A stretch of 64,000 nt of DNA from Thermoplasmata archaeon (lineage in GTDB: Archaea > Thermoplasmatota > Thermoplasmata > Thermoplasmatales > Thermoplasmataceae): positions 1-64,000 of the forward strand of contig JAJZXB010000001.1 of assembly GCA_021846395.1 (NCBI GenBank), in the 5' to 3' direction. Below are positions 9,460-31,449 of the stretch, piece by piece; position 1 is the first letter of the stretch; every line of letters begins with the position of its first letter. The position numbers and the translations under genes are program-made. Under the pieces are notes generated by a model. The model was not told where the DNA came from. It ran no database searches and worked only from the letters and a program-made list of their open reading frames with translations.

Positions 9460-10586
9460 TACATAACGCAATAATTAATACCGCATGTTTTAACTTTTTA
9501 CATGGCAAAGTGTTTCCAGGGCAGAATTTTCATTGGCCCACAATAAGAACTGTTTTGCAACAATCTTCACCATGCCATTCAGGTCAGGGAAATACTGGTT
9601 GTGCAGCCTTAACTTCTTAAGCAGTTTCCATACCCTCTCTATGGGATTAAGCTCTGGAGAATATGGTGAAAGGAAATCGAGAGATATTATGTCATTGTGT
9701 TCTACCAGCCATGGTTCAAGCAGCTTTGCATGGTGGTACCTTGCATTGTCAAGCACCACCTGCATTTTCTTGCATTTTCCCCTTTTGGCAAGAATATTGA
9801 GGAACTTTAAGAATGTTTGTGCATTGAACTTCTTTGAAAACATTCCAACAAACTCCCCGTTTCTAATGTTCACTGCACCGAATATGCTGATACCTTTTCT
9901 TGTTGGCTCCTGCAGTGCAACAGGATCCTTTTCCTCTGGAGGTATCCACATAGCAAGCCTTGTGCCATTCTGGTAGAAATGGCATTCATCCAGTGACCAT
10001 ATATCTGTATCCTCCCTTTCTAGGTCTTCTGAGAGTTTTTTTTAAAGGTATCCTTTTTTACAGGATCACCCTTTGCAATTAATGGCCTCGGTTTCCTCAT
10101 CCTGAACCCAAGCCTGTGGAATACCATCTGGCATGCCCTCACACTGAGTTCCTTATGGTACTTCTCATAAATATGGTGCTTCAGCAGTTTTCCATCCCAG
10201 AGGTTCTGTTCATAATTGAATTCCTTTGGATTCTTCCGGAGATCGCCATCAATTTCATCCATTTCCTGTAGTGTAAGCTTAGAAGGCCTTCCATTCCTCT
10301 TTCCTTCCCTGAGTGCATTGAAACCGCCGGTATTGAATTTTTTCACCCATATTTCCAGGGTTTTTGGGTCTTCTCCAAGGATCCTGCCTGCTTCATAGCA
10401 GCTCATTTTTTCACTCACGAGCAGGATTCCATGCAAACGGTGGTCATACCTTGATTCGTCAGAGCGTGATATCTCATTCCGTATTGCTACCGCCTGTTCC
10501 TCTGCATTTATGATTTCCAATTTTCTCATAACTATATAACGGAAAGAACTATTTAACATATACGGTATTACTTATTTCGCTATGTA
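9460..10586 (-). mobile_element. IS630-family insertion sequence, 1127 bp
   Basis: Imperfect inverted repeats of about 24 bases bound the element: the left end starts TACATAACGCAATAATTAAT, and the right end read inward starts TACATAGCGAAATAAGTAAT. A TA dinucleotide is duplicated on each side (9458-9459 and 10587-10588), as expected for IS630/Tc1-type transposition. It carries one transposase gene in two frames on the minus strand and interrupts the proline racemase gene. No second copy is in the window. Confidence 0.93.
9490..10559 (-). CDS. IS630-family transposase, two frames joined by a -1 shift
   Basis: The N-terminal part (10559-10020, 179 residues) has a helix-turn-helix region with SCYEAGRILGEDPKTLEIWV and a second homeodomain-like region around GRPSKLT. 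The C-terminal part holds the DDE catalytic domain: DEC in WSLDECHFYQNG, the second Asp in VVLDNARYHHA and the Glu in YSPELNPIERVWK. The frames overlap around eight consecutive A's on the coding strand (T's at 10036-10043). A -1 slip there gives one product of about 350 residues, the normal length for the family. A programmed -1 frameshift is known for IS630 elements. The start may be 10559 or the in-frame ATG at 10529. Confidence 0.88.
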
Positions 10587-26899: not shown

Positions 26900-27324
26900 A
26901 TGCCAAAGGAGAATACCTGAATATTCAATGAGATTGCATCTGAGTATGAGGAAATAAATGGTATTTTCATTTTTGGCATCGATTGAATATGGAGAAGACA
27001 GACGGCAAAATATGCTATTATTGACGGACCAAGGCACTCACTTCTTGATGTGGCTACATGTTCCCTATCATTGAGGAATATTGATAGGGTAAAAAATTTT
27101 TTATGGAGGTATTTAGTGTTTTGAAGCCTGGCGGAAAACTTGTACTTGCCGATACCACATGCCCTGCAAGAATTTTCACTAAAATAGGGTTTTATTTATA
27201 TTCCCGGATTATTATGGTTGAAGGAACCATCATAAATAAAGGCTATTCTTTTATGGTGAATAGCTACAGTGGCAAATCATCCACAATATTCCAATTTTTT
27301 TACCTTTTTATATTTATTATCTGA
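26900..27324 (+). pseudogene. decayed UbiE/MenG-type methyltransferase
   Basis: Pieces of a SAM-dependent methyltransferase lie in order. From 26900 one reads IFNEIASEYEEINGIF, then IWRRQTAKYA and LLDVATC, with TGA stops at 26918 and 26984. After LRNIDRVKNF a frameshift at a T run (about 27096-27102) leads to VLKPGGKLVLADTTCPA. The glycine-rich SAM loop and about 60 residues between motif I and the LRN segment are missing. The order matches ubiquinone/menaquinone C-methyltransferase proteins. The gene is inactive. Confidence 0.82.
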
Positions 27325-27344: not shown

Positions 27345-27953
27345 TTAAAATCCCAAAAGTGAGGGGATAAAACTATCCACAAAGTTCAGAATAATGGCAA
27401 TTATAAATATGGCTGCAAATATTTTGCTGTTCCAGTAAAATACCTTACTACCATCCAGAGGTGGCACCGGCAACAGATTAAAAAGGGCAAACCATAGGTT
27501 TAAGATTGCAATATAATAAAGCATAAAACCTACTGTGCCTGAATTAAGGAAAATATGAATTGTTAAGAATATCCCGCCAAAGAAAATATTTGTTAGAGGG
27601 CCTGCAATTGCAATTTTTCCCTCGCTTTTGGAATCATACAGCCCCGCAAATTCCACTGCACCCGGGGCAGCGAATATAAAGCCGAATAGAGAGGTGAAAA
27701 GGGCAAGCAATATTCCCGTTTTCCATAATTTGAAATATGCAATTGCTCCAAGGCGTCTTGCTACTGTCCTGTGTGCCAGTTCATGCAGCAAAAAGGCAGT
27801 TACCGTAACAGAGAAAGCAGTAATTGCATATATAGGCAATAACGAGGGGTTTATTTTAAACAGTCCACCATTTATAAGGAGAGTAAATGCGAGAGTGAGC
27901 ACAACAACAGCAATAAGAATATCATTTTTTTCATTATATTTACTATACATCAT
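27345..27953 (-). CDS. site-2 protease family (M50) intramembrane metalloprotease
   Basis: 202 residues, about six helices. The zinc-binding HELAH (HExxH, near residue 58) lies in the second or third helix and the third ligand motif NLLPVPPLDGSKVFYW lies near residue 160. This is the compact archaeal S2P form without a PDZ domain; the enzyme cuts membrane-bound substrates such as regulators. The ATG is one base after the stop of the large repeat-protein gene, with GGAGAG in that gene's last codons as ribosome-binding site, so the two are translationally coupled. Confidence 0.92.
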   Translation of the reverse strand: MMYSKYNEKNDILIAVVVLTLAFTLLINGGLFKINPSLLPIYAITAFSVTVTAFLLHELAHRTVARRLGAIAYFKLWKTGILLALFTSLFGFIFAAPGAVEFAGLYDSKSEGKIAIAGPLTNIFFGGIFLTIHIFLNSGTVGFMLYYIAILNLWFALFNLLPVPPLDGSKVFYWNSKIFAAIFIIAIILNFVDSFIPSLLGF

Positions 27954-27954
27954 T

Positions 27955-30900
27955 TTAATTCTCTCCTTCTTTTATATTTATTATATTGATGGCATCAATC
28001 AGACCTATATTAAAGTTGCACACAATTTCAATGGGGTTATTCATTTTTTTATTAATGAATTTTAGAATATTTTTATAATTTTTATTTGCACCAATATTGA
28101 CGACATTATCTATTGCCATGTTTATGAATAAATAGAAGTTTTTTGATTTTATCACATCACCAAGTACATTGAATATTTGATTTATTCTTATTTGGTTAAG
28201 TTCAGTATATCCCATGCTGAATAATTTTTTCAATATATCCACAGACATATAGTTATAAGCATATTTATCAATAAAGGTATAGGGTTCACCAGACCTGATG
28301 AAATTAAAAACATAGTCAATAAAGTATTCTGGAATTATATCAGTTGCTTCATCCGGGCTAAGTAATCTGTTTTTCTCAAATTCTGTTTTAAAAAGCTTTT
28401 TAGCATGGATAAGGACGTTTTTAAATTTAAATGCTGTTCTCAATTTATATTTTATGTCCTCCTTCAGGGTTGCATCTACTGAATTCATAAATTCATTTTC
28501 AAGAATTGCCACATCCTGATATCTAAATAATTTTATCAGTGAATAGAAAATATATTTTATATTGTTCTGATCGATGAATTTTAAATATTTTTTATAAATG
28601 GTTATTATTGCATCATAATTTTTTGAATTGTAATATAGTTCAAGCAGCCTGTCAAATAATATTCTCTCTTTAAGGTTAATAAAAGAGGATTTTAAAAATT
28701 CCATTGCATCCTCTTTTTCCTGATTTTTGTTCAATGTTTCAGTCAGTTTCAAAATTATTTTTATATTATTGGGATTGGAATTATGCAATATTTGAAGGAT
28801 GTATTTTTCCATATTGTAGTCCTCATCATTATCAAGTTTAGAGCATATAATTTCCCCAAGAATGCTGTTTCTGGTTTGAATAAAAAGTTCCATTATTCTG
28901 GATCTGATGCTGCTTTTTGACCAGAGATTATTTACAATGAATTCAAATCCCTTTCTGTTATCCAGGTTTATTTCATTTACATATGACTCTATTGATGAAT
29001 AATTGCCCTTCAAATATAACAGTACTATTGCGTAAAAATTATTTTTTCCAGAGTTTTCAATAACTGAAGTGAGTATATTTTTATCTGACAATATTTTAGC
29101 AAAATTTTCGGAAATATCCTTTTTTTCCGATCTTAAATATGAATTGACATAATTTATGGCTGATTCAACATAATATTTTTTATTGAAATAATAATCGCCA
29201 ATCAGAGAGTATATCACATCATTTTTTACTTTTAAATGCTCGAGAAATTTAATGCCACTATTTTCATTTTTCCTTGAAAGAAGATAATAGTGTTGGACAA
29301 TATCATCTACAGTTATGTTGTTGAATTTCATTATGCATGCTGAATATTTTAATTTCTCTACAGGCTCTGAGTTTATATGGCGCCCTATTCTATAGAAATT
29401 TATATCATTAATCTTCATGCCATTGATATGCGAAACACTGCCTTCAGGTAGAGAATATTTCATTTCTAAAATTGTATTATATGCATATTTAAACGCTGAA
29501 AACAATTTATATTCAACAACTGTATTAAAGACATCCTTCAGGTTTTCACCCCCAATTAAATTTAAAATTATTTTTAATGACAGAAAGCGTGCATTTGTCA
29601 ATCCATCAAGGGCATCAATAATATATTTTTTTGATTCACTGTAATCATTTTTGTAAAAATAAATATTTGCAAGCAAATAATAAAAAAATGGATCAGGGTT
29701 TTTACCGAATAGTTCCGTTAGATTTTTTTCGGCATCATCATATAAACCTATATTTATCAGGGCATTGCTAAGAGGATACAAAAAGAATATGGAGTCCTCC
29801 ATATCGCTCTTTATTTTATTTTTATAGACATTCTTTACATTTTTAATAATCATTCTTACGGTCTCAAAATTTTCCCTCTCCAGAATTTCATCTACATAGT
29901 CTTCATGCCTGTTATTAATAAAATTATAGCCATTCATGGAAAGTATATACGCACATGCTATTGACCCAGTTTTTATAATATCCTTTATATGCATCCCAGC
30001 ATTGTCCGGTTCCATACCACGCATATATAAAATTATTACTTCGAGAAGAGAATTTTTGTAATCAAGTTTTTCAAATATGGATAGACTCTTATCATCACGG
30101 GCTTTTTCAAATATGGAATCAACAATATACTTGCTGTTCAAAAGGCTTTTATCTTCACTCAGTATATTAAAGGCGCTCTCAAAATTGTTTGTAAATATTA
30201 AGCATGCTGCATATTGTGCTCTGTACCTGTCATAAACATTATTACTGGTGATAAACTGGTTCAGTTCGGAATATTTCTCATTTTTATAAAGGTATTTTAC
30301 CATTATATCAATGCTTGTTTCATTTAGAGTTCCCAGTGCCATAATTTCTTCTGCTATCCTGTATTCCCTATCCTCGTCATTATTTTCCCTGCAATATAGC
30401 AATTCAAGATTCAATAATTGGTAGTCAGAACCATATAGTTTTGTATATTTTTTAATATCGTATTCAGTTTCTATAAACATATATAATTTTATTTCTGCCT
30501 CAATTTTATACAATAATAATTTTTTGTCATTGTGGTTTTCGTGGGAATTTATATAGGAAACAACTGCTCCATAGTCCCCAATTTTGTATTCTATGTCTAT
30601 TATTGTATCAAGAACGTTTTTATCAATATTATAATATATGTTTTTAAAAATGACAAGAGCATTTTCATAATTTCCTGAATAATAATAAGCATAACCAAGT
30701 CTGGCATTTGTATTGTCAGTTATATCCATGTATTCGATACTCTGTTTGTATTTTCCAAGAAAGTACAGATAGTCTGCTATTTTTTTATTTGGTTTTTCCC
30801 TGTTCATTTGAATTATTCTATTTACCATCTTCTCCATCAGATCCTTTTCCCCTGTTGTTTCATATATATCAATTAAATTATAGTAACAGTTAAGATCGTT

Positions 30901-31449
30901 TTTTATTTCTATGCATTTGGTCAATATTTTTTCTGCACTGGCATAGTTTCCAAATTGAAGATAATTATCTATAACCTTTTTCATATCATCAAAATGATAA
31001 AAATTCGATATGTACAGATTCACGTCCTCTTCATTATAGACATTTACGCATGAAGAGTAATATATTTTTGAAAACGAATTCATTGTGATGATTAAATCGT
31101 AAAAATATTTTTTTAGTTCCTCATTTTTAAGCATAAATGGTTTATCCTTTATATATTCCATAAAATTTAACCCATCATTTTTTCTGTAATATTCCCTTAA
31201 ATTGTGTAGATAGACTATATGGTTTGTGGGATCAATGGATTTAATAAGGTCATAAATTTTTTCTGGAATCTCAATTCCCTTTAGGTATTCGTATATTTCA
31301 ATCTTATCACTGTCAGTGCATGTTTTCTTGATTTCATCCATATTATTTTCCATAAAAATGGCTAATTTTTCATAGTTGTTTATTTTTAAACTATTTTTTA
31401 AATACTGTATTAATTTGTGCATTGTTTTCCTGTAACTTAATGAAAACAT
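27955..31449 (-). CDS. 1164-residue TPR-like repeat protein, function unknown
   Basis: A very long soluble protein of helical hairpins. Segments such as NARLGYAYYYSGNYENALVIF and PFFYYLLANIYFYKNDYSESKKYI, each cut here to its core, have the tetratricopeptide pattern (large-small-aromatic spacing about every 34 residues). The pattern is irregular over the whole length, in the manner of divergent TPR or Sel1-like solenoids. No enzymatic motif, signal peptide or transmembrane helix is seen. Lys, Asn, Ile and Tyr are very frequent. It is co-transcribed with a site-2 protease, so a scaffold linked to that protease is possible. A second in-frame ATG is at 31422. Confidence 0.75.
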   Translation of the reverse strand: MFSLSYRKTMHKLIQYLKNSLKINNYEKLAIFMENNMDEIKKTCTDSDKIEIYEYLKGIEIPEKIYDLIKSIDPTNHIVYLHNLREYYRKNDGLNFMEYIKDKPFMLKNEELKKYFYDLIITMNSFSKIYYSSCVNVYNEEDVNLYISNFYHFDDMKKVIDNYLQFGNYASAEKILTKCIEIKNDLNCYYNLIDIYETTGEKDLMEKMVNRIIQMNREKPNKKIADYLYFLGKYKQSIEYMDITDNTNARLGYAYYYSGNYENALVIFKNIYYNIDKNVLDTIIDIEYKIGDYGAVVSYINSHENHNDKKLLLYKIEAEIKLYMFIETEYDIKKYTKLYGSDYQLLNLELLYCRENNDEDREYRIAEEIMALGTLNETSIDIMVKYLYKNEKYSELNQFITSNNVYDRYRAQYAACLIFTNNFESAFNILSEDKSLLNSKYIVDSIFEKARDDKSLSIFEKLDYKNSLLEVIILYMRGMEPDNAGMHIKDIIKTGSIACAYILSMNGYNFINNRHEDYVDEILERENFETVRMIIKNVKNVYKNKIKSDMEDSIFFLYPLSNALINIGLYDDAEKNLTELFGKNPDPFFYYLLANIYFYKNDYSESKKYIIDALDGLTNARFLSLKIILNLIGGENLKDVFNTVVEYKLFSAFKYAYNTILEMKYSLPEGSVSHINGMKINDINFYRIGRHINSEPVEKLKYSACIMKFNNITVDDIVQHYYLLSRKNENSGIKFLEHLKVKNDVIYSLIGDYYFNKKYYVESAINYVNSYLRSEKKDISENFAKILSDKNILTSVIENSGKNNFYAIVLLYLKGNYSSIESYVNEINLDNRKGFEFIVNNLWSKSSIRSRIMELFIQTRNSILGEIICSKLDNDEDYNMEKYILQILHNSNPNNIKIILKLTETLNKNQEKEDAMEFLKSSFINLKERILFDRLLELYYNSKNYDAIITIYKKYLKFIDQNNIKYIFYSLIKLFRYQDVAILENEFMNSVDATLKEDIKYKLRTAFKFKNVLIHAKKLFKTEFEKNRLLSPDEATDIIPEYFIDYVFNFIRSGEPYTFIDKYAYNYMSVDILKKLFSMGYTELNQIRINQIFNVLGDVIKSKNFYLFINMAIDNVVNIGANKNYKNILKFINKKMNNPIEIVCNFNIGLIDAINIINIKEGEN

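Follow-up and report, generated by a model that had tools for sequence, protein, structure and literature searches.

The biological relevance and the targets of archaeal site-2 proteases (S2Ps) were given as unknown in a 2015 review (PMC4343526). One of these enzymes, MJ0392 (PDB 3b4r), belongs to family M50. In plants EGY3 is an S2P pseudoprotease (PMC10978774), and large scaffolds built of TPR repeats, such as SKI3/TTC37, CTR9 and IFT139/TTC21B, are found in eukaryotes. Here we have analyzed a stretch of 64,000 nucleotides from a Thermoplasmata archaeon (contig JAJZXB010000001.1, hereafter the window), in which the gene of a giant TPR protein (the solenoid) is followed by that of a small M50 protein (Table 1). 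An earlier sequence-only reading, which knew of no such described pair, agrees with our search: no TPR-S2P pair was found in the literature covered, which left most subscription papers outside.

Table 1. Features of the solenoid-M50 locus in the window.
Feature	Position	Strand	Basis and remarks
M50 / site-2 protease gene	27345..27953	minus	ORF, ATG start, 202 aa, several hydrophobic segments
LDG motif (PPLDG) of M50 protein	27450..27458	minus	sequence
HELAH zinc-binding motif of M50 protein	27771..27785	minus	sequence
Solenoid gene	27955..31449	minus	ORF, ATG start, 1,164 aa; TPR alpha-solenoid followed by the C-terminal domain
Ribosome-binding-site-like AAGGAGAG purine run	27961..27968	minus	sequence; within the final codons of the solenoid gene; putative function
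Conserved C-terminal domain (CTD), family marker	27961..28497	minus	approximately residues 985-1163; no Pfam family match
TPR solenoid part	28480..31080	minus	approximately residues 124-990; range covered by structural matches

The sequence-only reading had described a 1,164-residue frame followed after one base by a site-2 protease with its ribosome-binding site in the last codons of the larger gene, and coordinates and sequence agree with this at every point. Exactly one base separates the TAA of the solenoid from the ATG of the M50 gene, and the GGAG of AAGGAGAG ends 9 bases ahead of this ATG, the start that the purine run would serve. The 202-residue product matched PF02163 with 35.1 bits (cut-off 27.2) and combines this profile similarity with motifs of the HExxH and LDG types, so that we take it as a predicted intramembrane protease with intact motifs. 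Behind the M50 gene, at 27103-27324 and just upstream, there is a short ORF containing a VLKPGGKLVLAD stretch that by eye resembles the remnant of a broken SAM-methyltransferase gene; its comparison with one neighbor cluster gave no useful match. Elsewhere in the window (9490-10559, minus strand) two ORFs together resemble by eye a split IS630-type transposase.

The solenoid is rich in Lys, Asn and Ile, as had been noticed before (10.1, 10.9 and 11.9%, with 8.9% of Tyr), and its gene has a G+C content of 27.6% vs. 33.7% for the window. A second in-frame ATG is located 9 codons downstream of the first. No membrane segment was detected (maximum 19-residue hydropathy 1.43). The statement that the protein has no known domain was wrong, because TPR_19 (36.6 bits, cut-off 25) and TPR_14 (29.6 bits, cut-off 23.5) both exceed the Pfam cut-offs. 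On the other hand, the proposed TPR-like solenoid was borne out by AlphaFold2, which from a seven-row alignment gave an all-helical solenoid with a mean pLDDT of 81.2 and a pTM of 0.48. With TPR profiles above the curated cut-offs and a helical-repeat fold, the 1,164-residue protein can be classified as a TPR alpha-solenoid. The fold search with it gave generic TPR superhelices.

In order to place the pair in its lineage, we used a sample of 61 genomes of the order Thermoplasmatales (acidophilic relatives of Thermoplasma), i.e., that of the window and 60 relatives, with families labeled by f-numbers (the genome of the window belongs to f1). Searches with single proteins detected the solenoid in 36 of the 61 and the M50 protein in 59, while reading of the loci with profiles gave a head-to-tail pair in 45. 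The pair was present in 35/37 genomes of f1, 8/8 of f5, 1/5 of f4, 1/1 of f6 (at a contig edge, with the C-terminus of the solenoid visible) and 0/9 of f3; in f2 an M50 fragment lies at a contig edge and pairing could not be counted. The two exceptions in f1 are G024, where the solenoid stops at a contig edge, and G036 (59% complete), which has neither gene; G009, counted as paired, is frameshifted. In this sample an M50 gene, often overlapping, lies directly downstream of every solenoid of the order that does not run into a contig edge. Another 17 genomes of f1 were all paired by coordinates, and so were all the M50-bearing genomes (10 of 12) of the genus of G014, six of which are already within the count of 45. 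Thus, the genes are not separated in most relatives inside the order, the finding that the sequence-only reading had named as the one that would count against it. The pair is not a product of chance, since both genes have full-length homologues in the relatives, arranged as in the window.

The spacing is also conserved. The distance between frames, measured from the most upstream start, ranges from -44 to +44 nt in all 34 intact loci of f1, and 6/8 loci of f5 have a 4-base overlap, although overlaps may be overstated because the earliest possible start was used. Translational coupling would be the mechanism that acts in this unit. The flanking genes vary between f1 and f5 while the pair stays: upstream there is often arlJ or a gene for a hexapeptide-repeat protein in f1, and in f5, by reading of the sequence, a TFIIB-like gene plus a small basic protein, on the opposite strand.

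The picture changes outside the order. The CTD was found in 40 of 145 genomes sampled across the phylum, five of them outside the class, and as a single copy in the eight tested genomes that have one. In 19 of 20 outer-class loci (all but L160) the only match to the CTD profile was the solenoid, with E values from 1e-25 to 1e-37. However, there was no M50 gene within six ORFs of the solenoid in any of the 20, and in the single-contig genomes G201, G137, G157 and G169 the two genes are far apart. Conversely, M50 genes with an intact motif are found without the solenoid in 9/9 genomes of f3 and 4/5 of f4, and a CTD search of one genome of each family (G038 and G043) was negative, so neither protein needs the other everywhere. 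The solenoid being class-wide and the M50 protein occurring also solo, it is their close pairing that characterizes the order; as the solenoid is older and class-wide, it must have a further role without an adjacent protease. The neighborhood conservation proposed as a check is seen inside the order and is absent from the outer-class loci. The two-part system that the sequence-only reading had put forward fares likewise: it is plausible because the pairing holds in most genomes of the order (where no solenoid free of contig edges lacks its adjacent M50 gene), but it is too strong in that the pair is not obligate.

The long M50 frames of f11 (L251-L253) have no sign of fusion to a solenoid. In G004 a second M50 gene (L120:3842-8233, G004:C3) starts 3 bases after that of a 1,258-residue secreted-looking protein with repeated domains, which does not match the solenoid profile; it is another arrangement of a large protein and an M50 gene, of unrelated make-up. 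The thermopsin-like neighbors of 1,278-1,288 residues in two genomes of f4 (L067:3167-7003 and L075:2867-6733), by eye large secreted proteins located beside a solo M50 gene on the opposite strand, are unrelated to the solenoid profile as well.

The clearest indication of what the M50 protein may do for the solenoid comes from relatives that have lost its catalytic motif. HExxH and DG are both kept in 82 of 84 M50 rows, and the remaining two, from G014 and G030, belong to pairs. A third paired M50 protein without HExxH (G424) came from a search of the genus of G014, in which the other seven of ten keep both motifs. The HExxH position reads SYGSM, SFAVK and NYLST in G014, G030 and G424, respectively, and the Asp of LDG is replaced by Pro in the first, kept in the second and replaced by Val in the third. 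All three genes have 204 codons and keep the same -1 overlap with a solenoid of 1,212-1,213 residues. With pS at 0.81-0.86 the silent sites are saturated, but pN is 0.24-0.31, indicating purifying selection. The ratio of pN between M50 protein and solenoid was 0.97-1.30 for the motif-less proteins vs. 0.46-0.65 in the four active pairs compared; i.e., they are relaxed but constrained, their rate relative to the solenoid being roughly double that of the active ones. An assembly artifact is unlikely, since the G014 assembly consists of a single contig of 1,938,699 bases. The cells are not devoid of S2Ps, because each of the three genomes encodes another three M50-like proteins, all of larger size (in G014 one of them is below the Pfam cut-off). 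The motif-less proteins belong to one lineage, hence perhaps to one event. Only these three show the pattern of an S2P pseudoprotease of the EGY3 type, a lost catalytic motif in a gene still under selection, the window protein having its motifs intact, and no archaeal pseudo-S2P was found in the literature searched. Retention of the M50 protein after the loss of the cutting site suggests that it works with the solenoid as more than a protease. Accordingly, the earlier idea that the solenoid selects substrates or regulates proteolysis cannot describe its whole role, given that three genomes retain the pair after losing the catalytic motif.

Our preferred reading, to which we would give even chances, is a two-gene unit in which the solenoid is the cytosolic partner and the M50 fold the membrane partner, in a partnership that can outlive catalysis. 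In Thermoplasmatales the translationally coupled genes would produce the cytosolic TPR solenoid beside the small M50 metalloprotease, on which it most likely docks and which would fix it to the membrane. With an intact M50 protein, such as that of the window, the solenoid would probably recruit or gate membrane substrates or receive their cytosolic fragments after release; the catalytically dead form, present in part of one genus, would act only as membrane partner. Physical contact, docking, topology, the substrates and their recruitment are what we infer here, and the close spacing, its conservation and the retention of the pair after catalysis was lost favor a physical partnership. Against it stand the lack of rate coevolution, the non-obligate occurrence and the restriction of the dead form to one lineage. 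A more specific version, which we hold only tentatively, is that of a membrane platform, the M50 fold being the membrane receptor of a giant class-wide TPR protein with a new CTD, and proteolysis an optional output.

A serious rival, in our judgment less likely than not, is co-regulation without contact: in an ancestor of the order the M50 gene would have moved behind the solenoid, and it would have remained in that place because its translation depends on the gene upstream, each protein doing a separate job. The occurrence of each protein without the other and the M50 start embedded in the end of the solenoid gene are consistent with it. So is the tree of the 84 M50 proteins, in which members of f1, f3 and f5 group by family but the paired ones do not form one supported clade, so that a single origin of the pairing is not settled. 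The rates point the same way: solenoid and M50 protein showed no excess of coevolution over three neighboring control genes, and the mirror-tree test gave a partial correlation of 0.17 (p 0.16, n = 17). Alignment columns that split paired from solo M50 proteins (five rows with a difference >0.6) were largely clade signal, and we propose no docking site from them. However, the preservation of the pair over several families with changing flanks, and of the close spacing after the loss of the catalytic site, exceeds what inertia would produce.

The solenoid could also have a regulatory or scaffolding role in information processing, with its release from the membrane controlled by the protease, which we consider unlikely. 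Its CTD, with an all-helical model (pLDDT 87.8, pTM 0.80), may consist of three helix-turn-helix-like units, the first of them weakly resembling the HTH parts of sigma factors, TetR and DtxR, and outer homologues carry zinc-finger-like Cys/His clusters. However, no structure match of the CTD reached significance (best Foldseek E 0.77, best Z 4.9), there was no consistent Pfam match for it and none for the copy of the window, and a protease would find no membrane anchor to cut in the solenoid.

The Cys/His clusters of the outer-class solenoids (L151-L157, L159, L161-L170) lie in a low-complexity tail after the CTD. They resemble a B-box or RING-type zinc finger, but in the four tails scanned the Pfam matches stayed under the cut-off (best zf-B_box 17.6 bits, cut-off 24.1). 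Many outer-class tails end in RD[W/F][S/T]RL or similar. Those of f5 are acidic, with [Y/F]L as the usual ending, and the f1 protein of the window has no such tail.

Finally, a role of the pair as archaellum accessory is very improbable: of the 16 f1 genomes with an arlJ homologue, 14 have it immediately ahead of the pair, which there lies directly behind arlF/G-H-I-J (L084, L085, L086, L087, L089 and others), but no ArlJ match was obtained in 21 of the 37 f1 genomes, that of the window included, and the pair is present in 20 of the 21. It is thus not confined to genomes with archaellum genes, and in f5 ArlJ is present in 7/8 genomes but unlinked to the pair.

The closely spaced and conserved partner gene offers a direct handle on the relevance and targets of archaeal S2Ps, and with the natural dead M50 protein that has stayed beside its partner one can separate their proteolytic and structural roles. 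The solenoid is by itself a giant protein found across the class, with one copy in each of the genomes tested that have it and with a CTD that has no Pfam family. The large eukaryotic scaffolds SKI3/TTC37, CTR9 and IFT139/TTC21B gave its best Foldseek matches and were among its best profile matches, and they have whole-length helical repeats in common with it. However, with approximately 10% identity and TM-scores of approximately 0.1-0.3 this is a likeness of the general TPR superhelix only, and no common function is implied. MJ0392 gave an M50 family profile match (E 8e-11, mostly in the LDG half), its HExxH aligns with that of the M50 family of the window, and a short multi-pass core is common to both. 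In contrast to MJ0392, the M50 protein of the window shares one unit with a giant solenoid, and one lineage of its relatives is catalytically dead. EGY3 (PMC10978774) and the iRhoms, which are intramembrane pseudoproteases (PMC3149277), are eukaryotic, and no pairing with a TPR solenoid was found in the literature consulted on them. Like the M50 proteins of the G014 type, both have retained the protease fold after losing catalytic residues. If the platform reading is true, the dead S2P found in part of one archaeal genus would be the archaeal counterpart of iRhoms and EGY3.
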